DNA of 64,000 nt. It comes from Chrysophaeum taylorii. Its lineage: Eukaryota; Sar; Pelagophyceae; Pelagomonadales; Pelagomonadaceae. The translations under genes and the position numbers were made by a program. The stretch is taken from positions 1 to 64,000 of the forward strand of contig JAQMWT010000670.1 in NCBI GenBank assembly GCA_029834535.1, given 5' to 3'. The notes beneath the pieces were generated by a model that searched no databases, was not told the origin of the DNA, and worked only from the letters and a program-made list of their open reading frames with translations. Position 1 is the first letter of the stretch; each line of letters opens with the position of its first letter. Below are positions 17,397 to 35,964 of the stretch, one piece after another.

Positions 17397-20300
17397 ATGC
17401 AGAAAGCGATCATGCTCCTGACACTCGCATCGACGTTCGCGCTCGGCGCCGCCGTGGCGGTAGGAAATGAGAGCCGAGTGCTCACCGAGACGTACGACTG
17501 TGGCTCGGATCCGACGTTCGCCGAGCTCATCGCCGAGTTCCAGAAGTACGCCCTCATCACGCGCGACGATGCATACATCACGGCCAAGGTGCTGTACCGG
17601 AAGATTCTCGTGGGCGGGACCCTCGAGCGCACGACCAACGGCCACAGCATCGAAGTGGCCTCGAATTTTCGCGGCGACGGCCCGAGCTACGTCGCCAACG
17701 GCACGCCGCTCGAGAAGGTGACGTTCAACAGCGGCCTGGAGACGACGGGATTCCCCGCGTGGTTCGACTGGGAGGACATCGAGAATCTGGCCCTTTCGAT
17801 CGAGCCATCGACGAACGTTTACGTGGTGACGCAGCAACCCGGCGACATCTGGGATCTCTTTGATTTTGGGGACCAGAACGCGCAAGCCAACAACAACGGA
17901 GCGACTCTGGCCGTTTTTTTGGGTACTGCGGACGTCCTTTTGACTGACGGTGGCGGCCGGTCCTTTGGACCTTCGGTGCTGGCCCCCTTCGCGCGAGTCG
18001 AGCTCTTAAACCAGAACATCGGCTTCGTCGACGGCTTCATTGTCGCCAAGAATTACTACGGCAACGACTTCGACGGAATCGAGCTTCACGCGCAGGGCTA
18101 TAAAAACGAGTACGTCTGCAGCGCGCCAGACCCATCCACGGCGCCGACGACGGCTCCCATTCCGGCGCCCAGCCTCTTGCCATCCATCCTGCCCTCCGTC
18201 TTCCCGACGCAGGCCTCCGACGCGCCTACGCCAGCGCCGACGGATGCTCCGATTCCAGCTCCAACGACGAATCCCTCGGGGTTACCTGCGAGCGCGCCCA
18301 CCGCAATGCCCACGTCGACGCCCGTGTCCGACCCTACGCCAGGACCGTCAGCGGTGCCGATCCCTGCGCCGACGCCGGCGCCGACGGATGCTCCGATACC
18401 CGCTCCGACGACAAGTCCCTCGGGCTTACCTGCGAGCGCGCCCACCGCCGTGCCCACGTCGACGCCCGTGTCCGACCCTACGCCAGGACCGTCAGCGGTA
18501 CCGATCCCCGCGCCGACACCGGCGCCGACGGATGCTCCGATACCCGCTCCGACGACGAGTCCCTCGGGTTTACCTGCGAGCGCGCCCACCGCCGTGCCCA
18601 CGTCGACGCCCGTGTCCGACCCTACGCCAGGACCGTCAGCGGTGCCGATCCCCGCGCCGACACCGGCGCCGACGGATGCTCCGATACCCGCTCCGACGAC
18701 GAGCCCCTCGGGTTTACCTGCGAGCGCGCCCACCGCCGTGCCAACCAGCACGCCCGTGTCCGGTCCTACGCCAGGACCGTCAGCGGTGCCGATCCCTGCG
18801 CCGACGCCGGCGCCGACGGATGCTCCGATACCCGCTCCGACGACGAGCCCCTCGGGTTTACCTGCGAGCGCGCCCACCGCCGTGCCAACCAGCACGCCCG
18901 TGTCCGGTCCTACGCCAGGACCGTCAGCGGTGCCGATCCCCGCGCCGACGCCGGCGCCGACGGATGCTCCGATACCCGCTCCGACGACGAGTCCCTCGGG
19001 GTTACCTGCGAGCGCGCCCACTGCTGTGCCAACCAGCACGCCCGTGTCTGACCCTACGCCAGCACCGTCAGTGGTGCCGATCCCCGCGCCGACGCCGGCG
19101 CCGACAGATGCTCCGATACCCGCTCCGACGACGAGTCCCTCGGGTTTACCTGCGAGCGCGCCCACTGCTGTGCCAACCAGCACGCCCGTGTCTGACCCTA
19201 CGCCAGCACCGTCAGTGGTGCCGATCCCCGCGCCGACGGCGACGCCGACGGACGCGCCGACGTCGAGCCCGTTGCCGGCTCCGACTGCTGGTCCCTCAGC
19301 TCTGCCAACCAGCTCGCCCGTGCCCGATCCTACGCCAGCGCCGTCCGTGGTGCCTATCGCGGCGCCGACGGCCGCGCCGACGTCGAGCCCAATTCCGGCT
19401 CCGACTGCTGGTCCCTCAGGGTTACCCGCGAGTGCGCCCACTGCTGCGCCATCAAGCACGCCCGTGGCCGGTCCTACGCCAGCACCCTCAGCGGTCCCGA
19501 TCTCCGTGCCGACGTCGATGCCGACCGACGCGCCGACGGCGAGCCCGTTGCCGGCTCCGACTGCTGGTCCCTCAAGCTTACCCGCAAGCGTGCCGACCTC
19601 TGTGCCGACGAGCTCGCCCGTGCCGGACCCTACGCCGGCGCCCTCGGCGGTACCGATCCCCGCGCCGACGGCAGCGCCGACGTCGAGCCCAATTCAAGCT
19701 CCCACGGCGAGTCCCTCGGGTCTCCCTGCAAGCGCACCCACCGCCGAGCCGACGAGCTCGCCTGTGCCGGACCCTACGCCAGCGCCCTCGGCGGTGCCGA
19801 TCCCCGCGCCGACGGCAGCGCCGACGTCGAGCCCAATTCCAGCTCCCACGGCGAGTCCCTCGGGTCTCCCTGCAAGCGCACCTACCGCCGAGCCGACGAG
19901 CTCGCCCGTGCCGGACCCTACGCCAGCGCCCTCGGCGGTGCCGATCCCCGCGCCGACTGCAGCGCCGACGTCGAGCCCAATTCCAGCTCCCACGGCGAGT
20001 CCCTCGGGTCTCCCTGCAAGCGCACCCACCGCCGAGCCGACGAGCTCGCCTGTGCCGGACCCTACGCCAGCGCCCTCGGCGGTGCCGATCCCCGCGCCGA
20101 CGGCAGCGCCGACGTCGAGCCCAATTCCAGCTCCCACGGCGAGTCCCTCGGGTCTCCCTGCAAGCGCACCCACCGCCGAGCCGACGAGCTCGCCTGTGCC
20201 GGACCCTACGCCAGCGCCCTCGGCGGTGCCGATCCCCGCGCCGACTGCAGCGCCGACGTCGAGCCCAATTCCAGCTCCCACGGCGAGTCCCTCGGGTCTC

Positions 20301-23300
20301 CCTGCAAGCGCACCCACCGCCGAGCCGACGAGCTCGCCCGTGCCGGACCCTACGCCAGCGCCCTCGGCGGTGCCGATCCCCGCGCCGACGGCAGCGCCGA
20401 CGTCGAGCCCAATTCCAGCTCCCACGGCGAGTCCCTCGGGTCTCCCTGCAAGCGCACCCACCGCCGAGCCGACGAGCTCGCCCGTGCCGGACCCTACGCC
20501 AGCGCCCTCGGCGGTGCCGATCCCCGCGCCGACGGCAGCGCCGACGTCGAGCCCAATTCCAGCTCCCACGGCGAGTCCCTCGGGTCTCCCTGCAAGCGCA
20601 CCCACCGCCGAGCCGACGAGCTCGCCCGTGCCGGACCCTACGCCAGCGCCCTCGGCGGTGCCGATCCCCGCGCCGACGGCAGCGCCGACGTCGAGCCCAA
20701 TTCCAGCTCCCACGGCGAGTCCCTCGGGTCTCCCTGCAAGCGCACCCACCGCCGAGCCGACGAGCTCGCCCGTGCCGGACCCTACGCCAGCGCCCTCGGC
20801 GGTGCCGATCCCCGCGCCGACGGCAGCGCCGACGTCGAGCCCAATTCCAGCTCCCACGGCGAGTCCCTCGGGTCTCCCTGCAAGCGCACCCACCGCCGAG
20901 CCGACGAGCTCGCCCGTGCCGGACCCTACGCCAGCGCCCTCGGCGGTGCCGATCCCCGCGCCGACGGCAGCGCCGACGTCGAGCCCAATTCCAGCTCCCA
21001 CGGCGAGTCCCTCGGGTCTCCCTGCAAGCGCACCCACCGCCGAGCCGACGAGCTCGCCCGTGCCGGACCCTACGCCAGCGCCCTCGGCGGTGCCGATCCC
21101 CGCGCCGACTGCAGCGCCGACGTCGAGCCCAATTCCAGCTCCCACGGCGAGTCCCTCGGGTCTCCCTGCAAGCGCACCCACCGCCGAGCCGACGAGCTCG
21201 CCCGTGCCGGACCCTACGCCAGCGCCCTCGGCGGTGCCGATCCCCGCGCCGACGGCAGCGCCGACGTCGAGCCCAATTCCAGCTCCCACGGCGAGTCCCT
21301 CGGGTCTCCCTGCAAGCGCACCCACCGCCGAGCCGACGAGCTCGCCCGTGCCGGACCCTACGCCAGCGCCCTCGGCGGTGCCGATCCCCGCGCCGACGGC
21401 AGCGCCGACGTCGAGCCCAATTCCAGCTCCCACGGCGAGTCCCTCGGGTCTCCCTGCAAGCGCACCCACCGCCGAGCCGACGAGCTCGCCCGTGCCGGAC
21501 CCTACGCCAGCGCCCTCGGCGGTGCCGATCCCCGCGCCGACGGCAGCGCCGACGTCGAGCCCAATTCCAGCTCCCACGGCGAGTCCCTCGGGTCTCCCTG
21601 CAAGCGCACCCACCGCCGAGCCGACGAGCTCGCCCGTGCCGGACCCTACGCCAGCGCCCTCGGCGGTGCCGATCCCCGCGCCGACGGCAGCGCCGACGTC
21701 GAGCCCAATTCCAGCTCCCACGGCGAGTCCCACAGGTTCGCCAATCAGCGCGCCCACGACGACACCTACAGCTTCGCCGAGCTCGTCGCCATCCTCAGCC
21801 CCGACCACCAGCCCCTCAGGTTTGCCAATCAGCGCGCCGACAGCGTTGCCAACGAGCGGTCCTTCGTCGAACCCAAGCCGTGCACCATCCTCGGAACCAA
21901 GTGCGGCGCCGACTCTCAGTCCCTCGGCTGCGCCTACGTGCTTACTGGTCACTTATCCATGCGATGAAATCGACGGTTTCACCGAGTTGGCGGCAGAGTT
22001 TCAAAAGTATTCCCTCATTACTCGCGACGATGCGCATATCTCAGCGCATTCAATCTACCGAGCCATTGTCGTCGGCGGCAATCTTACACGGACTGACGCA
22101 AGCCACAGTATCGAAGTCGCTTCGAACTATCAGGGTGACGGACCGAGCTACGTTGCTGACGGGACTCCAGTAGATAACGTCAGGTTCAACAGCGGTTTGG
22201 AGACGTCAAATTTTCCTGGTTGGTTCGACTGGGAAAAGATCGAAGAGTTCGCGCTTTCGATTGCGCCGTCGGATGATGTGTACGTTGTCACGCAACAGGA
22301 GGGCGACACGTGGAACCTGTTTGACTTTGGCGACCAGAACGCGCAAGGCAACAATAACGGGAAAACATTGGTTGTCTTCTTGGGGACGGCAGATGTTCTG
22401 CTTACCGATGGAGGAGGTCGACAATTCGGACCTTCGATTCTCGCACCATTTGCGAAGGTCGAACTCTTCAATCAGGCCGTGGGCTACGTTGACGGTTTTA
22501 TCGTTGCCAAGTCATATAATAGCAATGATTTCCTTGGAATCGAACTCCATGGACGAGGCTACAGCGGAGAATACACGTGTGGACCAGAGAGCATATGTGA
22601 GCCATCGACGCTCCCTAGCTCTGTTCCGACGCTCAGTTCCTCGCGTCCTCCAGCGAGCACGTCCGTGGTTTTGCCATCAACAACTCCCTCGTCGTCTGCA
22701 GGACCAAGCGCCATGCCTGTTGCCTTCGCGCCCGCTGTTGCACCATCTGCGAGACCGAGCTCGGATCCAGGTCTCTCGCCACAGCCGCAACTATCGCTCG
22801 CGCCGACCCTCTCAAACGTTCCTACTTGTGCGCCAATATTGTTTTCTTGCGAACAAAACAACGTGTACGAGATGCTGGCAATCGAGTTCCAAAAGTATTC
22901 CCTCATTACTCGCGACGATGCCCATATCTCAGCGCATTCAACCAACCGAGCGATTGTTGTCGGCGGTAATCTTACACGTACTGATGCAGGCCACAGTATC
23001 GAAATCGCCTCGCACTATCGCGGTGACGGGCCGAGCTACGTTGCTGATGGGACTCCACTCGACAACGTCAGATTCAATAGTGGTTTGGAGACGACAAATT
23101 TCCCTGTTTGGTTCGACTGGCACGACATTGAGGAATTCGCGCAGTCGATCAAGCAATCAGATGATGTGTACGTTGTCACGCAACAGGAGGGCGACACCTG
23201 GAACCTGTTTGACTTCGGCGACCAGAACGCGCAAGGCAACAATAACGGGAAAACATTGGTCGTGTTCTTGGGGACGGCAGATGTTCTTCTTACCGATGGA

Positions 23301-26300
23301 GGAGGTCGACAGTTCGGACCTTCAATTCTCGCACCATTTGCGACGGTCGAAATCTTCAATCAGGCCGTGGGCTATGTCGACGGTTTCATCGTCGCAAAGT
23401 CATACAATAGCAATGAATTCCTTGGAATCGACCTCCATGGACAAGGCTACAGCGGAGAATACACTTGTGGATCAGAGAACATCTGTGAGCCATCGACGCT
23501 TCCTAGCTCTGTTCCTACGCTCAGTTCCTCAGATCCGCCAGCGAGCACGTCCGTGGTTTTGCCATCAACAACTCCCTCATTTTCTGCAGGACCAAGCGCC
23601 ATGCCTGTTGCCTTCGCGCCCGCTGTTGCACCATCTGCGAGACCGAGCCCGGATCCAGGTTTCTCGCCACAGCCGCAACTATCGCTCGCTCCAAGCCTCT
23701 CAAACGTTCCTACTTGTGCGCCAATATTGTTTTCTTGCGAACAAAACAACGTGTACGAGATGCTGGCAATCGAGTTTCAAAAGTATTCCCTCATTACTCG
23801 CGACGATGCGCATATCTCAGCGCATTCAATCTACCGAGCCATTGTCGTCGGCGGCAATCTTACACGGACTGACGCAAGCCACAGTATCGAAGTCGCTTCG
23901 AACTATCAGGGTGATGGACCGAGCTACGTTGCTGACGGGACTCCAATAGATAACGTCAGGTTCACCAGCGGTTTGGAGACGTCAAATTTTCCTGGTTGGT
24001 TCGACTGGGAAAAGATCGAAGAGTTCGCGCTTTCGATTGCGCCGTCGGATGATGTGTACGTTGTCACGCAACAGGAGGGCGACACCTGGAACTTGTTTGA
24101 CTTTGGCGATCAGAACGCGCAAGGCAGCAATAACGGTAAAACATTGGTCGTCTTCTTGGGGACAGCAGATGTTCTGCTTACCGATGGAGGAGGTCGACAA
24201 TTCGGACCTTCGATTCTCGCACCATTTGCGAAAGTTGAACTCTTTAATCAGGCCGTGGGCTACGTTGACGGTTTTATCGTTGCCAAGTCATATGACAGCA
24301 ATGATTTCGATGGAATCGAACTACATGGACGAGGTTATAGTGGAGAGTACACATGTTCCGCACCAAACGTCTGCGACCCGACGGCAGTTCCAAGTGCCGT
24401 GCCAACGTCGAGTCCTTCCGAGTCGTCTGATAGGCCCACAGCCGTGCCAACGGAGAGTCCAACGTCCGGCCCAATAAGTGCTCCATCTGCCGCGCCGAGC
24501 GCGGTGCCGACTTCTGTGCCGACGACCTTCTGCTATGACCTCGACAGACTCGGAGTGGTGGCGTATTATCCGTTTGAGGACGGTGTTGCGGTCGACTACA
24601 CTGGCAGCGGTCAGAATTGTGTCGTCCAGGGTGCCACAGAAACAACTGATCGGCTCGGCGACTCGACCGGGGCGCTCTTGTTCGATGGCACAAGCAACGT
24701 ACTCTGCGATGGTGTGGCGGCCAGCGGGTCGGATCCGCGGACGTACTGTGCCTGGGCGCGTGCGGATGACTCTTCAGACGACGAGCCATGGTACGCGCTT
24801 TTCCACACGGGTGACGAAGACAATGGAGGCGCCGTCTCGTGCTCGAGGTTCGAGCTGCAATTCAGCGACGAGGATGGTGGGCTATCCTGGGTTGGCAGTG
24901 GACTGGCCACCTGCGATGAGCAATTTCAAGGCGCGTCTGAGAGGGTGCCCAATCCGAGCGACTGGCATTTTCTTTGCGTTAGCTTCGATGGTGTCGATGT
25001 ATCTATCCACGCCGATGGCACTTTGCTGGTGACGTACACGCCTCCTGCGGATGTTGCAACTGGCCCTGGCCAAGATCTCATTGTCGGGCATGTTGACGAC
25101 GTGCCAAGCAACGACGTGTTGGGTTGGGTCGGCGCGATCGACGACGTCATGGTATTTGACAAGGCGCTCTCGACCGAAGAAATCGATGAGCTCTACAAGC
25201 TGACAGAGTCAGATCGCTTCAGTGCTAGGCTTGCGAAGTGCAGCCCAAGTCCAGCGCCGACCACTCTGCCGACATCTGCCCCGACTGCCAGTCCTTCTGG
25301 AATGCCGGCGAGCGTGCCCACGGCGCTGCCTACAAGTGGACCCGTTCCTGTGCCAACGAGCGCGCCGTCTCCGGGGCCGATTCCAGCGCCGACGGCGTTG
25401 CCGGTCCCGGCACCGACGCCTGCCCCGACTGCCAGTCCCTCTGGAATGCCGGCGAGCGTGCCCACGGCGCTGCCTACAAGCGGACCCGTTCCTGTGCCAA
25501 CCATCGCGCCGTCTCCGGGGCCGATTCCAGCGCCGACGGCGTTGCCGGTCCCGGCACCGACGTCTGCCCCGACTGCCGGTCCTTCTGGAATGCCGGCAAG
25601 CGTGCCCACGGCGCTACCTACAAGCGGACCCGTTCCTGTGCCAACGAGCGCGCCGTCTCCGGGGCCGATTCCAGCGCCGACGGCGTTGCCGGTCCCGGTA
25701 CCGACGTCTGCCCCGACTGCCGGTCCTTCTGGAATGCCGGCAAGCGTGCCCACGGCGCTACCTACAAGCGGACCCGTTCCTGTGCCAACGAGCGCGCCGT
25801 CTCCGGGGCCGATTCCAGCGCCGACGGCGTTGCCGATCCCGGTACCGACGTCTGCCCCGACTGCCAGTCCTTCTGGAATGCCGGCGAGCGTGCCCACGGC
25901 GCTGCCTACAAGTGGACCCGTTCCTGTGCCAACGAGCGCGCCGTCTCCGGGGCCGATTCCAGCGCCGACGGCGTTGCCAGTCCCGGTACCGACGTCTGCC
26001 CCGACTGGCATTCCTTCAGGAATGCCGGCGAGCGTGCCCACGGGGCTGCCTACAAGCGGCCCCGTTCCTGTGCCAACGAGCGCGCCGTCTCCCGGGCCGA
26101 TTTCAGCGCCGACGGCGTTGCCGGTCCCGGTACCGACGTCTGCCCCGACTGCCAGTCCCTCTGGAATGCCGGCGAGCGTGCCCACGACGCTGCCTACAAG
26201 TGGACCCGTTCCTGTGCCAACGAGCGCGCCGTCTCCGGGGCCGATTCCAGCGCCGACGGCGTTGCCGGTCCCGGTACCGACGTCTGCCCCGACTGCCAGT

Positions 26301-29300
26301 CCTTCAGGAATGCCGGCGAGCGTGCCCACGGGGCTGCCTACAAGCGGACCCGTTCCTGTGCCAACGAGCGCGCCGTCTCCGGGGCCGATTCCAGCGCCGA
26401 CGGCGTTGCCAGTCCCGGTACCGACGTCTGCCCCGACTGCCATTCCTTCAGGAATGCCGGCGAGCGTGCCCACGGGGGTGCCTACAAGCGGACCCGTTCC
26501 AGTGCCAACGAGCGCTCCCTCTCCGGGGCCGATTCCAGCGCCGACGGCGTTGCCGGTTCCGGTACCGACGTCTGCCCCGACTGCCAGTCCTTCTGGAATG
26601 CCGGCAAGCGTGCCCACGGCGCTACCTACAAGCGGGCCCATTCCTGCGCCGACCGCATCACCTATACCGGCGCCGACCGCATCACCGATACCGGCGCCGA
26701 CTTCCGCACCAACAGCAAGTCCATCTGGTTCGCCAACTTCGCTACCAACGGAGAGTCCAACGTCCGTCCCAATCAGTGCTCCATCTGCCGCGCCGAGTGC
26801 GGCGCCGACTTCTGTGCCGACGACCTTCTGCTATGACTTCGACAGACTCGGAGTGGTGGCGTATTATCCGTTTGAGGACGGTTTTGCGGTCGACTACACT
26901 GGCAGCGGTCAGAATTGTGTCGTCCAGGGTGCCACAGAAACAACTGATCGGCTCGGCGACTCGACCGGGGCGCTCTTGTTCGATGGCTCGAGCAACGTAC
27001 TCTGCGATGGTGTGGCGGCCAGCGGGTCGGATCCGCGGACGTACTGTGCCTGGGCGCGTGCGGATGACTCTTCAGGCGAAGAGCCATGGTACGCGCTTTT
27101 CCACACGGGTGACGAAGACAATGGAGGCGCCGTCTCGTGCTCGAGGTTCGAGCTGCAATTCAGCGACGAGGATGGTGGGCTATCCTGGGTTGGCAGTGGA
27201 CTGGCCACCTGCGACGAGCAATTTCAAGGCGCGTCTGAGAGTGTGCCCAATCCGAGCGACTGGCATTTTCTTTGCGTTAGCTTCGATGGTGTCGATGTAT
27301 CTATCCACGCCGATGGCACTTTGCTGGTGACGTACACGCCTCCTGCGGATGTCGCAACTGGCCCTGGCCAAGATCTCATTGTCGGGCATGTTGACGACGT
27401 GCCAAGCAACGACGTGTTGGGTTGGGTCGGCGCGATCGACGACGTCATGGTATTTGACAAGGCGCTCTCGACAGAAGAAATCGATGAGCTCTACAAGCTG
27501 TCGGAGTCAGATCGCTTCAGTGCTAGGCTTGCGAAGTGCAGCCCAAGTCCAGCGCCGACCACTCTGCCGACATCTGCCCCGACTGCCAGTCCTTCTGGGA
27601 TGCCCGCGAGCGTGCCCACCGCGCTGCCTACAAGCAGACCCGTTCCTGTGCCAACGAGCGCGCCGTCTCCGCGGCCGATTCCAGCGCCGACGGCGTTGCC
27701 GGTTCCGGTACCGACGTCTGCCCCGACTGCCAGTCCTTCTGGAATGCCGGCGAGCGTGCCCACGGCGCTGCCTACAAGCGGACCCGTTCCTGTGCCAACG
27801 AGCGCGCCGTCTCCGGGGCCGATTCCAGCGCCGACGGCGTTGCCGGTCCCGGCACCGACGTCTGCCCCGACTGCCAGTCCCTCTGGAATGCCGGCGAGCG
27901 TGCCCACGACGCTGCCTACAAGTGGACCCGTTCCAGTTCCGACGAGCGCTCCCTCTCCGGGGCCGATTCCAGCGCCGACGGCGTTGCCGGTCCCGGTACC
28001 GACGTCTGCCCCGACTGCCAGTCCTTCAGGATTGCCGGCGAGCGTGCCCACGGCGCTGCCTACAAGCGGACCCGTTCCAGTGCCAACGAGCGCTCCCTCT
28101 CCGGGGCCGATTCCAGCGCCGACGGCGTTGCCGGTTCCGGTACCGACGTCTGCCCCGACTGCCAGTCCTTCTGGAATGCCGGCGAGCGTGCCCACGGCGC
28201 TGCCTACAAGCGGACCCGTTCCTGCGCCAACAAGCGTTCCTTTTCCTGCACCGACCGCATCACCGATACCGGCGCCGACTTCCGCACCAACAGCAAGTCC
28301 ATCTGGTTCGCCAACTTCGTTACCAACGGAGAGACCAACGTCCGGCCCAATCAGTGCTCCATCTGCCGCGCCGAGTGCGGCGCCGACTTCTGTGCCGACG
28401 ACCTTCTGCTATGACCTCGACAGACTCGGAGTGGTGGCGTATTATCCGTTTGAGGACGGTGTTGCGGTCGACTACACTGGCAGCGGTCAGAATTGTGTCG
28501 TCCAGGGTGCCACAGAAACAACTGATCGGCTCGGCGACTCGACCGGGGCGCTCTTGTTCGATGGCTCGAGCAACGTACTCTGCGATGGTGTGGCGGCCAG
28601 CGGGTCGGATCCGCGGACGTACTGTGCCTGGGCGCGTGCGGATGACTCTTCAGGCGAAGAGCCATGGTACGCGCTTTTCCACACGGGTGACGAAGACAAT
28701 GGAGGCGCCGTCTCGTGCTCGAGGTTCGAGCTGCAATTCAGCGACGAGGATGGTGGGCTATCCTGGGTTGGCAGTGGACTGGCCACCTGCGACGAGCAAT
28801 TTCAAGGCGCGTCTGAGAGTGTGCCCAATCCGAGCGACTGGCATTTTCTTTGCGTTAGCTTCGATGGTGTCGATGTATCTATCCACGCCGATGGCACTTT
28901 GCTGGTGACGTACACGCCTCCTGCGGATGTCGCAACTGGCCCTGGCCAAGATCTCATTGTCGGGCATGTTGACGACGTGCCAAGCAACGACGTGTTGGGT
29001 TGGGTCGGCGCGATCGACGACGTCATGGTATTTGACAAGGCGCTCTCGACAGAAGAAATCGATGAGCTCTACAAGCTGTCGGAGTCAGATCGCTTCAGTG
29101 CTAGGCTTGCGAAGTGCAGCCCAAGTCCAGCGCCGACCACTCTGCCGACATCTGCCCCGACTGCCAGTCCTTCTGGGATGCCCGCGAGCGTGCCCACCGC
29201 GCTGCCTACAAGCGGACCCGTTCCTGTGCCAACGAGCGCGCCGTCTCCGCGGCCGATTCCAGCGCCGACGGCGTTGCCGGTTCCGGTACCGACGCGCCCC

Positions 29301-32300
29301 GACTGCCAGTCCTTCTGGAATGCCGGCGAGCGTGCCCACGGCGCTGCCTACAAGCGGACCCGTTCCTGTGCCAACGAGCGCGCCGTCTCCGGGGCCGATT
29401 CCAGCGCCGACGGCGTTGCCGGTCCCGGCACCGACGTCTGCCCCGACTGCCAGTCCCTCTGGAATGCCGGCGAGCGTGCCCACGACGCTGCCTACAAGTG
29501 GACCCGTTCCAGTTCCGACGAGCGCTCCCTCTCCGGGGCCGATTCCAGCGCCGACGGCGTTGCCGGTCCCGGTACCGACGTCTGCCCCGACTGCCAGTCC
29601 TTCAGGATTGCCGGCGAGCGTGCCCACGGCGCTGCCTACAAGCGGACCCGTTCCAGTGCCAACGAGCGCTCCCTCTCCGGGGCCGATTCCAGCGCCGACG
29701 GCGTTGCCGGTTCCGGTACCGACGTCTGCCCCGACTGCCAGTCCTTCTGGAATGCCGGCGAGCGTGCCCACGGCGCTGCCTACAAGCGGACCCGTTCCTG
29801 CGCCAACAAGCGTTCCTTTTCCTGCACCGACCGCATCACCGATACCGGCGCCGACTTCCGCACCAACAGCAAGTCCATCTGGTTCGCCAACTTCGTTACC
29901 AACGGAGAGACCAACGTCCGGCCCAATCAGTGCTCCATCTGCCGCGCCGAGTGCGGCGCCGACTTCTGTGCCGACGACCTTCTGCTATGACCTCGACAGA
30001 CTCGGAGTGGTGGCGTATTATCCGTTTGAGGACGGTGTTGCGGTCGACTACACTGGCAGCGGTCAGAATTGTGTCGTCCAGGGTGCCACAGAAACAACTG
30101 ATCGGCTCGGCGACTCGACCGGGGCGCTCTTGTTCGATGGCTCGAGCAACGTACTCTGCGATGGTGTGGCGGCCAGCGGGTCGGATCCGCGGACGTACTG
30201 TGCCTGGGCGCGTGCGGATGACTCTTCAGGCGAAGAGCCATGGTACGCGCTTTTCCACACGGGTGACGAAGACAATGGAGGCGCCGTCTCGTGCTCGAGG
30301 TTCGAGCTGCAATTCAGCGACGAGGATGGTGGGCTATCCTGGGTTGGCAGTGGACTGGCCACCTGCGACGAGCAATTTCAAGGCGCGTCTGAGAGTGTGC
30401 CCAATCCGAGCGACTGGCATTTTCTTTGCGTTAGCTTCGATGGTGTCGATGTATCTATCCACGCCGATGGCACTTTGCTGGTGACGTACACGCCTCCTGC
30501 GGATGTCGCAACTGGCCCTGGCCAAGATCTCATTGTCGGGCATGTTGACGACGTGCCAAGCAACGACGTGTTGGGTTGGGTCGGCGCGATCGACGACGTC
30601 ATGGTATTTGACAAGGCGCTCTCGACAGAAGAAATCGATGAGCTCTACAAGCTGTCGGAGTCAGATCGCTTCAGTGCTAGGCTTGCGAAGTGCAGCCCAA
30701 GTCCAGCGCCGACCACTCTGCCGACATCTGCCCCGACTGCCAGTCCTTCTGGAATGCCGGCGAGCGTGCCCACGGCGCTGCCTACAAGTGGACCCGTTCC
30801 TGTGCCAACGAGCGCGCCGTCTCCGGGGCCGATTCCAGCGCCGACGGCGTTGCCGGTCCCGGCACCGACGTCTGCCCCGACTGCCAGTCCCTCTGGAATG
30901 CCGGCGAGCGTGCCCACGACGCTGCCTACAAGTGGACCCGTTCCAGTTCCGACGAGCGCTCCCTCTCCGGGGCCGATTCCAGCGCCGACGGCGTTGCCGG
31001 TCCCGGTACCGACGTCTGCCCCGACTGCCAGTCCTTCAGGATTGCCGGCGAGCGTGCCCACGGCGCTGCCTACAAGCGGACCCGTTCCTGTGCCAACGAG
31101 CGCGCCCTCTCCGGGGCCGATTCCAGCGCCGACGGCGTTGCCGGTCCCGGTACCGACGTCTGCCCCGACTGCCGGTCCTTCTGGAATGCCGGCGAGCGCT
31201 CCCACGGCGCTGCCTACAAGCGGACCCGTTCCTGCGCCAACAAGCGTTCCTTTTCCGGCACCGACCGCATCACCGATACCGGCGCCGACTTCCGCACCAA
31301 CAGCAAGTCCATCTGGTTCGCCAACTTCGCTACCAACGGAGAGTCCAACGTCCGTCCCAATCAGTGCTCCATCGGCTGGGCCGAGCGCGGCGCCGACTTC
31401 TGTGCCGACGACCTTCTGCTATGACCTCGACAGACTCGGAGTGGTGGCGTATTATCCGTTTGAGGACGGTGCTGCTGTCGACTACACTGGCAGCGGTCAG
31501 AATTGTGTCGTCCAGGGTGCCACAGAAACAACTGATCGGCTCGGCGACTCGACCGGGGCGCTCTTGTTCGATGGCTCGAGCAACGTACTCTGCGATGGTG
31601 TGGCGGCCAGCGGGTCGGATCCGCGGACGTACTGTGCCTGGGCGCGTGCGGATGACTCTTCAGGCGAAGAGCCATGGTACGCGCTTTTCCACACGGGTGA
31701 CGAAGACAATGGAGGCGCCGTCTCGTGCTCGAGGTTCGAGCTGCAATTCAGCGACGAGGATGGTGGGCTATCCTGGGTTGGCAGTGGACTGGCCACCTGC
31801 GACGAGCAATTTCAAGGCGCGTCTGAGAGTGTGCCCAATCCGAGCGACTGGCATTTTCTTTGCGTTAGCTTCGATGGTGTCGATGTATCTATCCACGCCG
31901 ATGGCACTTTGCTGGTGACGTACACGCCTCCTGCAGATGTCGCAACTGGCCCTGGCCAAGATCTCATTGTCGGGCATGTTGACGACGTGCCAAGCAACGA
32001 CGTGTTGGGTTGGGTCGGCGCAATCGACGACGTCATGGTATTTGACAAGGCGCTCTCGACAGAAGAAATCGATGAGCTCTACAAGCTGTCGGAGTCAGAT
32101 CGCTTCAGTGCTAGGCTTGCGAAGTGCAGCCCAAGTCCAGCGCCGACCACTCTGCCGACATCTGCCCCGACTGCCAGTCCTTCTGGGATGCCCGCGAGCG
32201 TGCCCACGGCGCTGCCTACAAGTGGACCCGTTCCTGTTCCAACGAGCGCTCCCTCTCCGGGGCCGATTCCAGCGCCGACAGCGTTGCCGATCCCGGTACC

Positions 32301-35300
32301 GACGTCTGCCCCGACTGCCAGTCCTTCTGGAATGCCGGCAAGCGTGCCCACGACGCTGCCTACAAGCGGACCCGTTCCTGTGCCGACGAGCGCTCCGTCT
32401 CCGATACCGATTCCATCGCCGACCGCGTTGCCAATCCCGGCACCGACGTCTGCCCCGACTGCCAGTCCCTCAGGATTGCCCGCGAGCGCACCCACGGCGC
32501 TGCCAACAAGCGGCCCGGTTCCAGTTCCGACGAGTGCTCCCTCTCCGGGGCCGATTCCAGCGCCGACCGCGTTGCCAATCCCGGCACCCACTGCATCGCC
32601 GATTCCGGCACCGACGTCTGCACCGACTGCCAGTCCCTCTGGATTGCCAGCGAGCGCGCCTACGGCGCTGCCAACAAACGGCCCTGTTCCTGCTCCGAGC
32701 AGTGCTCCATCTCCCGTGCCGATTCCGGCGCCGACCGCGTCGCCTATCCCGGCGCCGACGTCAGTCCCAACTGCAAGTCCCTCAGCATTGCCCGCGAGCG
32801 CGCCGACGGCGCTGCCAACAAGCGGCCCCGTTCCTGTTCCGACGAGGGCACCATCTCCAGGGCCGATTCCAGCGCCGACGGCGTTGCCAATCCCGGCACC
32901 GACCGCTTTGCCCATCCCTTCACCTACCGCGGCCCCAACTGCAAGTCCCTCATCGTTGCCCGCGAGCGCGCCCACGGCGCTGCCAACAAGCGTTCCAGTT
33001 CCCGCTCCGAGCAGTGCTCCATCTTCGGGGCCAATCCCTGCACCGACCGCTTTGCCAATCCCGGTACCTACTGCGGTCCCGACTGCAAGTCCCACGGCAT
33101 TGCCCGCGAGCGCGCCCACTGCGCTGCCAACAAGTAGCCCGGTTCCTGTTCCAACGAGAGCTCCATCTCCAGGGCCTATTCCGGCGCCGACAATGTCGCC
33201 CACATTGCAGCCTTCTCCTGTGCCGACCCAGAGTCCCTCAGCTGATCCGTGCCCGCCAAATTCAACGTATTCGTGCGAGGAAAACGAGGTGTTCAGCAGG
33301 CTTATTGCCAAATTTCAGCAGTACTCTCTCATCGTTCGGGACGATGCGGAGATCGCGGCTAAAGTCGTCTACGGACCAATAGTCATTGGAGGAAATCTAT
33401 CGAGGACGTTTAAGGATCACAGCATTGAAATTGCCTCGAACTTTCGTGATCAAGGTCCAAGCTATGTTGCCGACGGGCTCCCGCTCTCGAACGTACGGTT
33501 TCAGACAGGGGTCAATACGACGTATCTCCCCGGGTGGTTCAACTGGGACGATATTGAGGCCTTCGCGCTTTCTATCGAGCCATCGGAGAACGTATACGTC
33601 GTCACGCAACAAAAAAACGACACCTGGAACCTGTTCGATTTTGGCGACCAGAACGCTCAGCCCAGTGACAACGGCAAAACTCTGGTCGTTTTCCTCGGGA
33701 CGGCAGACGTTCTCCTCACGGACGGAGCCGGTCGGCAGTTTGGTCCCTCGGTGTTCGCGCCCTTCGCCCACGTCGAACTTCTTAATCAAGCCGTAGGCTA
33801 CGTCGACGGCTTTATTGTCGCCAAGTCTTACAACGGTAACGATCACAACGGCATAGAACTTCACGGACGAGGCTATACGGGAGAGTACGAATGCTCGTGC
33901 CCTGTTGCTGATACGACGGCGACGACGGCGACGAGCACTGCCGTCGAGGTGACGCAGACAACCGTGATGGATGCTGATGGCAACGAGATGAATTTCGATG
34001 AAGAATCGGGCACCCAACTTACCATCGGGGATGAGTTCACCCTGTCTTACACGTTTGAATCCACGGACGTCTCCGAGGTTGAAATCACGGCCTACGTGTG
34101 CGCTGCCGGTGACTCCGAAGACGAGCCTTGCGGTCAAGTTTCTGACGTTGTTGTGGCAAATCGGACGGTATTCTTGAACGCGACAGGCGGCGCAACCACA
34201 GTAGTGTTGAACTACACGGTCGAAGCACCGACGCTCGGGTTGAGCGAGGATTATCGCATCGTGTCATACGTCGTTGCGATGCCCGCGACAACAGGAGGGC
34301 GGCGGGATTTGTTGGTCACCGCGCGTACTGCCTCCCGACGCTTTCTTTCTTCAACAAGCCTCATTATCGAACCTGGTGGGAAGTACGAGCTCTACACGGG
34401 AACTTTCGAGATCGGGCTGTCGCACCCTCCCTCGGCATCCCCTAGTGCGGCGCCGACTGTTACGCGGGCGCCGTCAGCCTTGCCGACGATCTCAGCCTTG
34501 CCGACGATCTTGCCTTCGCTCGGGCCGACGAGCTCGCGCGTTCCGAGCCCAGTACCCACGGTCGTGCCGACGACGACCGCGCAGCGCATCGTTGCCGAGA
34601 CGTCTTCGGCCGGGTACCACATCAGGGTCGAAAACAAAAAAGATTGCCTGGTGCTTCTTTTGGTGCTCACCCTTGTGGGATGGTTTGTTATCGCTGCCGC
34701 ATTCCGCGAACGAAAGCTCATTACGAAGGAGATGTGCCATCAGTTGAGGAGCGAAAGATACTCTACGGTTCCTTTCTTATTTTTCACCGTGCTCGATGCT
34801 GGTTCTGATGGGCTTTTCGTCTGCTTCCGCAGCGCCGAACGGCGCTGGACCTTCTTCTGGGCTGGGCTCGCAATCATCTCTGTACGAATGGTGCTCTTGT
34901 TCGCGTCGAACCGCATCCTTCGCCTCGAGCACGCGACGAGGCCCGACGGAGGCTCGACCAAAGCAAAGCTCCTCAACACCAAGGCGATGCGCGCGAGCGG
35001 TGCTGTTTATGGTTCCGTCTTTATGGTCAGTGCCGTCATTAATCCTTGGCTCCTGGTGCTGCTCCCGTGGTACGAATCTTCGCGCGCTAAGGCCCTCTCG
35101 GGGTTGCCCAGTCCGCGGTTCTACTTGTGGACTATGGGTGTCGCCATCGTGTCTTCGGGTCTTCATCTCGTTACCAAGTTGGTGTACTTGTCCAAGCCAT
35201 ACGAGAGCGACTACGCGACCGAAATCGGCGCGCTCACCAACGTCGCCGTCCTCCTCTACACCGTCTCCGCGCTCGCCAAGGGCGGTCAGATAGCGTTCAA

Positions 35301-35964
35301 GGAACGGAGGAATTTCAGCCAGTCCCAAGTTCACGACGTCAAGCCTGGACTTCAAGTCCTCGGTGTCGACGAAGACGCCGAACTCCTCAAAAAGGTCTTC
35401 CTCAAAAACAAAGATCTTGAGGGTGACGGAAACGGATCGTACGGCGGATACGACGATTCTTGTTCCGGCGGTGGTGGTGGTGGTACAGGCACGGTTAGCG
35501 ATCGCGATGATAGTGACCTTTGCCGCCAGAAGGAAATTGCCGGGCTTCAGCGTGACATTTTGGGATCTGACTTCGACAAGCCACTAAGCGAATTAGAAGA
35601 CCAGGCCCGCGCTACCCGCGAGTTGAAGAGAACCCCGTTCGTCTCGTGGGGCGGCCGTAGCGCCGACAATATCACTCTCGATGTCGAAGAGGAAGTCTCG
35701 GAGGGTACTGCCGATGCGGTCTTCGCTTCCTTTAATCAGCCAGGCTTATCTGTGACGCCTCAAGTCGATACGGGACTCTACTCTTCGTTCGACCCGTCGT
35801 ACGCCGGACCCGAGCCAACGGCCGTTGCTTCCGATGCCAACGTGGACCTCGTGAGTCTCGTTGTCGATGGCCAGGAGGGTACTACCCCACTCGAGCCAAC
35901 GCCAAAAAAGGCACCATCCTCCATTAGCGGCAGATTCGGGCGCTGGCTTTCGCGCGAGTCTTAA
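17397..35964 (+). CDS. Giant multidomain surface adhesin-like membrane protein (one apparent frame break)
   Basis: About 6,190 codons if the single frame break is ignored. The ATG at 17397 opens a signal peptide (MQKAIMLLTLASTFALGAAV). Then: choice-of-anchor-A (CAA) domain 1 at 17500-18130; Pro/Thr-rich arrays to 21940; CAA2-CAA4 at 21950-22580, 22840-23470 and 23740-24360; LamG-like jelly-roll domains at 24525, 26823, 28400, 29977 and 31411 (each about 690 bp, 'YYPFEDG', 'WHFLCVSFDG', 'GAIDDVMVFDKAL'), separated by Pro/Thr arrays; CAA5 at 33245-33900; a beta-rich, N-glycosylation-containing region to 34420; five or six membrane segments at 34641-35284; and a tail with a Gly run and acidic stretches. 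CAA and LamG domains mediate adhesion and carbohydrate or protein binding, so a cell-surface adhesive role is inferred. Near 29294 a repeat reads 'ccgacgcgcccc' where its sister copy has 'ccgacgtctgcccc'. This 2-bp shortage shifts frame, and the upstream frame then ends at 29988-29990. The continuation is in the second frame, either by assembly error or true disruption. No introns are evident. Confidence 0.8.
18273..19712 (+). repeat. 144-bp Pro/Thr module array, divergent section
   Basis: About ten units with mostly 144-bp period ('ccctcggg' at 18273, 18417 and onward) encoding 48-residue modules of the form SGLPASAPTAVPTSTPV... Units vary (TDAPIPAPTT, TSSPLPAPTA variants), and some are shorter. 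This section is older and more diverged than the next array. Confidence 0.85.
19713..21728 (+). repeat. 144-bp module array, 14 near-identical copies
   Basis: Exactly 14 periods of 144 bp (19713 to 21729 is 2,016 bp), encoding 48-residue units that begin GLPASAPTAEPTSSPVPDP. The copies differ at only a few sites, such as 'ccgactgcagc' versus 'ccgacggcagc' and 'cctgtg' versus 'cccgtg', indicating recent expansion or conversion. The minus strand and a second plus frame are also open throughout because of the composition. Confidence 0.95.
21950..24360 (+). repeat. Tandem triplication of CAA domain plus linker
   Basis: Three CAA domains spaced about 900 bp apart. CAA2 and CAA4 are almost identical (for example the 'ggtttggagacgtcaaattttcctggttgg' neighbourhood), whereas CAA3 between them differs more. 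In contrast the linkers after CAA2 and CAA3 are nearly identical to each other. The pattern suggests duplication followed by segmental conversion. Confidence 0.85.
25260..26640 (+). repeat. Pro/Thr module array between LamG1 and LamG2
   Basis: About ten 144-bp units encoding 48-residue modules starting SGMPASVPTALPTSGPVPV. They have the same period as the first arrays although the residues differ, so the 48-residue length is conserved across the gene. Confidence 0.85.
26826..29979 (+). repeat. 1.58-kb tandem duplication (LamG plus Pro/Thr array)
   Basis: The unit from 'ttctgctatgac' at 26826 to 28403 (1,578 bp) is repeated at 28404-29979 (1,576 bp) with almost no differences apart from the 2-bp shortage near 29294 that breaks the reading frame. 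A further related unit of 1,434 bp follows (29980-31413). Confidence 0.9.

Follow-up and report, generated by a model that had tools for sequence, protein, structure and literature searches.

We analyzed a giant gene in a 64,000-nucleotide stretch of the genome of the alga Chrysophaeum taylorii (assembly GCA_029834535.1, contig JAQMWT010000670.1, here C670, positions 1 to 64,000; hereafter the window). The gene occupies 17397-35964 on the + strand and is laid out as a leader, five choice-of-anchor A (CAA) domains, five LamG domains, arrays rich in Pro, Thr, Ser and Ala, a juxtamembrane (JM) domain, six hydrophobic segments and an acidic tail (Table 1). The order in which these parts are read is leader, CAA 1, a 3.5-kb array, CAA 2-4, LamG 1-5 with an array after each, CAA 5, JM domain, membrane part and tail.

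Gene layout and reading frames

The protein is carried by two overlapping + strand open reading frames (ORFs), 17397-29990 (4197 aa) and 28927-35964 (2345 aa), and the second of these holds LamG 4-5, CAA 5, the JM domain, the membrane part and the tail together. Summed, the two readable parts amount to 6186 residues, of which 5731 precede the membrane part. The initial annotation had described a single 18.6-kb gene for a protein of ~6,200 residues with a signal peptide, five CAA and five LamG domains, long Pro/Thr arrays, five or six hydrophobic segments and a tail of ~220 residues. The size agrees and every domain was recovered, including a signal-peptide-like N-terminus by hydropathy, arrays of a 144-bp Pro/Thr/Ser/Ala unit, six segments and a tail of 221 residues, but near 29289 the two ORFs are offset by two bases, and the single gene is a model rather than an open frame. 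The change of frame falls between the identical LamG 3 and 4, at the one of 21 copies of a repeat motif that is two bases short. Mis-assembly, which is easy in such identical units, is a possible cause, as is a young, real frameshift; an intron is conceivable too, though not needed, because the repeat runs through the switch point. The two coding frames are open over 4197 and 2351 codons, against 102 to 145 stops over the same stretch in the other four frames. Because of these long open runs, and because the ratio of nonsynonymous to synonymous substitutions (dN/dS) stays under 1 in the CAA, JM and membrane parts, the open frames of the gene are far beyond chance.

A gene family with a shared juxtamembrane and membrane end

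We found the membrane domain at 15 places on 14 contigs of the 70.8-Mb genome, with relatives 31 to 70% identical, and at 13 of these places a JM domain precedes it within 0.8 kb (contigs C670, C103, C282, C35, C340, C106, C449, C6, C268, C344, C216, C293 and C44). The remaining two places, C391 and a site near 214 kb on C344, are fragments. At 11 of the 13 JM-membrane loci (not C344 or C216), CAA domains lie upstream on the same strand. C6 and C268 appear to represent a single locus twice, which makes 12 JM-membrane loci, 10 of them with CAA upstream, the more careful count. CAA and membrane part share one open frame in C670, C44, C293 and C35. According to the contig match tables, seven LamG domains (one with an internal stop) and 16 CAA domains lie upstream of the JM domain in C44, and 22 LamG and three CAA domains in C106. 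Judged by eye, three of the seven relatives' stretches have a leader-like start directly before CAA 1 (C35, C449 and C106), and the other four (C6, C103, C282 and C340) ran on into arrays. One uninterrupted frame runs through nine of the 15 membrane copies, those aligned below; the copies of C44 and C293 are shorter. The other six are interrupted or fragmentary, those of C340, C6, C268 and C216 being interrupted by frame changes or stops, or by unmodelled introns.

Pairwise Nei-Gojobori estimates of dN/dS, which are rough given that several dS values are near or above 1, were 0.23, 0.33, 0.24, 0.33 and 0.51 for five pairs of the membrane part, 0.28, 0.27 and 0.27 for three pairs of the JM domain, 0.25, 0.13 and 0.16 for the CAA domain (a fourth pair was saturated) and 0.36 for one pair of tails; the LamG copies were too alike to tell. 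The recurrence of the JM-membrane pair at 13 of 15 places, the upstream CAA domains and dN/dS below 1 argue, at the level of sequence, that the layout is a real family-level architecture and no fusion accident. The earlier assignment of the polytopic end to the same protein as the ectodomain was thus borne out, both by the ORF shared from LamG 4-5 to the tail and by the CAA-JM-membrane order at 11 of 13 loci.

The same end is also found behind other ectodomains. On C344, a 9,100-codon ORF (about 264161-291463) ends in a JM and membrane domain of the same kind; the parts of it that we read include a start that looks leader-like by eye and contains RRRL. They also hold a beta-helix of the right-handed type (PF13229, 27.8 against a cut-off of 25.9 bits) and a Pro/Ser/Thr array, and between the beta-helix and the JM-membrane end lie numerous near-identical repeats, beta-rich in appearance to our eye. 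No CAA or LamG match was found on contig C344. DUF2170 and AGA2 reached their cut-offs on one C344 repeat stretch, with no single passing match, and were given no weight. On C216, an array stalk stands ahead of the JM domain. Because of the C344 ORF and the C216 stalk, the JM-membrane end is seen to travel with different ectodomains, at least two of them unrelated.

Five further contigs (C524, C381, C686, C78 and C379) carry CAA domains with no JM-membrane match on the contig, and LamG lies beside CAA on three of the five; they make up a second, possibly secreted set.

An RRxL motif beside the membrane part

The JM domain with its RRxL motif was absent from the initial description, as were the relatives of the membrane part at 14 further places of the genome. 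Among the 5731 residues of the ectodomain there are three RXL tripeptides, namely RVL after the leader and those in RRDL and RRFL of the JM loop, and the dipeptide RR occurs solely in the latter two. RRxL is present in 10 of 11 JM loops, where shuffling predicts 0.43, a comparison in which the loop bounds were set by eye, the paralogs are not independent and the C44 and C293 loops are identical. In the alignment of ten JM domains, nine sequences have a letter at the motif; the first R is conserved in 8 of them and the second R and the L in all 9, and the neighboring columns are gappy. An RXL shortly after the leader was seen in three of the five leaders read (window, C106 and C344). The best Pfam name for the JM domain was DUF5643, at 17.6 bits against a cut-off of 34, and three PDB matches of the JM alignment (E 0.13-1.2) were taken as chance.

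In the available portions of the published work, to which all our statements on it refer, RXL is a processing motif in diatoms (PMC5525289, PMC4557024). The repeats of silaffins terminate in RRIL or RRNL, which is removed on maturation, and silicanin-1 carries an RRL behind its signal peptide, and a cut is thought to separate its luminal part from its membrane helix (PMC4557024, PMC5525289); its luminal domain enters the silica without the membrane helix (PMC5525289). The window protein, too, has RXL behind its leader and at further sites, with RVL at 17475 and RRDL and RRFL in the JM domain.

CAA and LamG domains

Both extracellular families reach curated profile cut-offs, in agreement with the five CAA and five LamG domains originally reported. 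PF13385 (Laminin_G_3) matches all five LamG copies, at 24726, 27024, 28602, 30178 and 31612, with 60.7-60.9 bits each (cut-off 27.6), and the copies also exceed the cut-off of the pentraxin family. Homology within the gene places the CAA copies at 17499, 21960, 22845, 23733 and 33271. Summed over copies, the window protein P0001 scores 71.5 bits with PF20597 (cut-off 23.8) and 54.5 bits with TIGR04215 (cut-off 29), and P0002 as a whole is below both cut-offs (19.2 and 23.1 bits). Across the genome, PF20597 gave 19 matches of 24.3-29.4 bits, covering the C-terminal half of the model only. A structure predicted from the five CAA copies of the window was too low in confidence to use (predicted local distance difference test, pLDDT, 28.7); neither CAA 5 nor LamG 1 alone had a PDB match by sequence, and two PDB matches of the CAA alignment (E 0.34 and 0.89) were taken as chance. 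CAA is a bacterial family, and the failure of two peptide patterns to confirm any CAA domain in the prokaryote genome collection therefore shows the reach of that search. No CAA relative was confirmed in viral contigs, and the comparison with plasmids gave six records with coverage of 20-22% and E 0.2-0.7.

Membrane domain and tail

Nine paralogs of the membrane domain align over 246 columns, and their invariant residues include D67 and D71 in segment 2, R97 in segment 3, T193-K194 at the end of segment 5 and N215 in segment 6. Mean hydropathy of the nine gives six segments; the charges yield no consistent assignment of inside and outside. A PDB search by sequence found no match. Against Pfam, the nine members produced seven names at E up to 10, each in one member (the search filters drop most matches above about 0.1), the best being TMEM249 at E 0.021. 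Folded alone, the domain reached a pLDDT of 47.7, too low to use, and no relative was confirmed in viral contigs. An XK-related scramblase, suggested by a D-x-x-S-D motif, found no support in Pfam. The eight tails that we read are acidic, array-free and hold 0-2 Cys each; six of them carry the motif (D/E)(V/I)xL(D/E)V, and C44 and C293 show a looser version by eye. Two of the eight, in C106 and C449, contain KSISWAP and KSVSWAP, which we take to be shaped like a phosphatase-1 docking motif.

Table 1. Parts of the gene in the window, with the basis of each assignment.
Feature	Position	Strand	Basis or remark
Signal-peptide-like start and short stretch to RVL tripeptide (nt 17475-17483)	17397-17472	+	Hydropathy, RXL positions; putative cleavage
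CAA domain 1	17493-18122	+	Homology within gene
Pro/Thr/Ser/Ala array, ~24 copies of 144-bp unit	18221-21731	+	
CAA domain 2	21954-22583	+	Homology within gene
CAA domain 3	22842-23471	+	Homology within gene
CAA domain 4	23730-24359	+	Homology within gene; PF20597 over cut-off at 24030-24302
LamG domain 1	24528-25241	+	PF13385
LamG domain 2	26826-27539	+	PF13385
LamG domain 3	28404-29117	+	PF13385
Register switch, repeat-motif copy two bases shorter	29289-29307	+	Coding moves to next frame
LamG domain 4, nucleotide-identical to LamG 3	29980-30693	+	PF13385
LamG domain 5	31414-32127	+	PF13385
CAA domain 5	33268-33903	+	Homology within gene; PF20597 27.5 bits on 33271-34380, cut-off 23.8
JM domain, two invariant Cys; loop with RRDL (34300) and RRFL (34336)	33937-34413	+	
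Six hydrophobic segments	34645-35277	+	Hydropathy, paralog alignment
Acidic C-terminal tail with (D/E)(V/I)xL(D/E)V-type motif	35299-35964	+	221 residues

Organism and neighboring genes

The genome holds 84 matches to light-harvesting proteins, as expected from the earlier attribution to an alga, and 22 to dynein heavy chain, some of them pieces. From these matches, and from the lack of any silicon-transporter match in the genome, the source is probably a flagellate-bearing alga and not a diatom. Three cellulose synthase matches (82.7-97.4 bits against a family cut-off of 699.1) were uninformative, as the model also responds in 11 of 14 control genomes. Elsewhere in the window lie a retrotransposon-type ORF with a GAG-pre-integrase domain (PF13976; 48843-50999, - strand), a sterol-sensing/Patched-domain ORF (PF12349, PF02460; 51289-53667, + strand) and a leucyl-tRNA synthetase-like ORF (PF13603, PF00133; 57632-60169, + strand).

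Discussion

We propose, with moderate confidence, that the gene encodes a giant, possibly processed, glycan-gripping protein of the cell surface that serves as a wall adhesin or sensor. The sequence cannot tell which of the two it is, and the "adhesin or receptor" of the initial annotation was likewise inferred. The polysaccharide that the protein would grip could belong to the wall or matrix of the alga itself, to a substrate or to a partner cell; the CAA and LamG domains would bind glycans such as cellulose, and the Pro/Thr/Ser stalks, presumably O-glycosylated, would space these glycan-binding-type domains. An endoprotease of the RXL type may cut both behind the signal peptide and in the JM loop, at RRxL. 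A cut in the loop would leave the last part of the JM domain attached to the membrane domain, with the ectodomain either set free into the wall or retained non-covalently. The membrane domain, with its invariant charged residues within the segments, is probably more than an anchor and might, for example, sense pull from the wall.

Parts of this arrangement have counterparts elsewhere. The Jonah lectins of the eukaryote Acanthamoeba are secreted and have either one CAA domain or three, with linkers rich in Ser, Thr and Pro; they bound cellulose well and chitin less well, and were predicted to form three-sided beta-helices on which the authors saw no linear aromatic array (PMC6541295, PMC11423589). 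The window protein resembles them in joining a leader, by hydropathy, to CAA domains, and differs in that no LamG or JM domain is described for Jonah lectins in the available text. The 2019 Acanthamoeba paper states that CAA domains occur in no other eukaryote, which is at odds with the CAA arrays of Piromyces and Neocallimastix that the paper itself discusses, with data from Cafeteria (PMC7852580) and with the present genome. In Cafeteria burkhardae, CAA, laminin G and fibrocystin-L appear together, on our reading of the table, under the cell-adhesion functions enriched in stationary phase; the available text lists domains rather than architecture and describes no polytopic end (PMC7852580). 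Silicanin-1 and the silaffins share with the window protein the RXL after the signal peptide and the RRxL sites, and in silicanin-1 the luminal part is likewise thought to be separated from the membrane part; silicanin-1 has, however, a single membrane helix and an Asn/Gln-rich luminal domain, and the present genome is without a silicon-transporter match. No protein that combines CAA, LamG and a polytopic end was evident from the titles or abstract openings of the literature entries listed, which is no proof of absence.

Animal adhesion G-protein-coupled receptors (GPCRs) also combine a huge adhesive ectodomain with a juxtamembrane domain that may be cut close to its end, a polytopic end and a tail. 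The resemblance to adhesion receptors drawn in the initial annotation is fair as an analogy, but membership is not supported, although a remote relation is conceivable: there are six segments and not seven, RRxL stands in place of an autoproteolytic site, and no GPCR, 7TM or GPS/GAIN family was found in Pfam for the nine membrane-domain or ten JM members at E up to 10, with filters that drop most matches above about 0.1.

Several observations weigh against the proposed function. The ectodomain holds three RXL against 5.1 expected by shuffling and two RR against 1.4, so the number of these motifs alone says nothing, and only their place and conservation stand out. One of the 11 JM loops (C449) lacks RRxL, and the related loops are not independent; two of the five leaders read (C35 and C449) have no RXL before CAA 1. 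In the available reports, RXL cleavage is documented for diatoms only, and this genome has no silicon-transporter match. The CAA domains fit the curated models PF20597 and TIGR04215 mainly in their C-terminal half. Six segments with an outside N-terminus would put the tail outside, against its cytoplasmic look. For Acanthamoeba Jonah-3, 12 predicted transmembrane segments were an annotation error and were all lost once transcripts were read (PMC11423589); here, the membrane end is backed by its recurrence at 15 places and by selection, not by one gene model. Finally, the register switch at 29289 may mean that the window copy is broken. That this copy is a family member decaying into a pseudogene, as the switch and the interrupted or fragmentary state of several relatives (C340, C6/C268, C216, C391 and C344 near 214 kb) might suggest, is nevertheless unlikely, given that the gene is otherwise open on either side, that the switch sits between LamG units without a nucleotide difference, where mis-assembly is easy, and that dN/dS is low for the window gene's CAA, JM and membrane parts.

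The place of the RRxL motif just outside the membrane part, in 10 of 11 loops, would also suit a purely structural wall protein, whose anchor serves for transport only: its ectodomain would be cut at RRxL and built into the wall, as proposed for the luminal domain of silicanin-1, which enters silica without its membrane helix (PMC5525289), and the membrane part would be turned over with no role in sensing. Repeated lectin-type domains also suit a wall cross-linker. We regard this as possible but doubtful, since a one-way anchor needs neither a six-segment domain with invariant charges nor a conserved tail motif, and the same JM-membrane module is kept under the unrelated ectodomain of C344. 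Those charges, namely two invariant Asp four residues apart in segment 2 and invariant Arg, Lys and Asn in other segments, could instead point to a channel, or a scramblase-like transporter, whose gating depends on pull on the tether. TMEM249, an auxiliary subunit of a sperm cation channel, points the same way as the best Pfam name, though in one of nine members at E 0.021 it is weak and probably due to chance. No pore-forming channel, GPCR or XK-related family is among the seven Pfam names of the nine members, and neither a PDB sequence match nor a usable fold (pLDDT 47.7) speaks for such a transporter, which we consider very unlikely.

Beyond the wall adhesin or sensor that we favor, we can envisage, as a distinctly less probable extension, an algal receptor family independent of GPCRs, in which the protein is cut inside the JM domain but stays assembled, and pull frees or shifts the last JM part as a tethered switch acting on a hitherto undescribed six-segment signalling domain. 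If so, interchangeable, glycan-gripping ectodomains of several thousand residues (5,731 here) would hold the wall, and the family would be a convergent counterpart of the adhesion-GPCR mechanism of animals, built from an RXL protease site.

Our analysis defines a module that pairs a JM domain with a six-segment membrane domain. The module matches no PDB sequence and no Pfam family convincingly, and stands at about a dozen loci in a single alga. In the window gene, lectin domains of a cellulose-binding type are joined to a polytopic membrane end, with a conserved motif of protease type at the point where a cut would part the grip from the membrane. In our judgement, the ways in which algae with walls hold on to them and sense them are poorly known, and both the motif and the tail lend themselves to direct tests.

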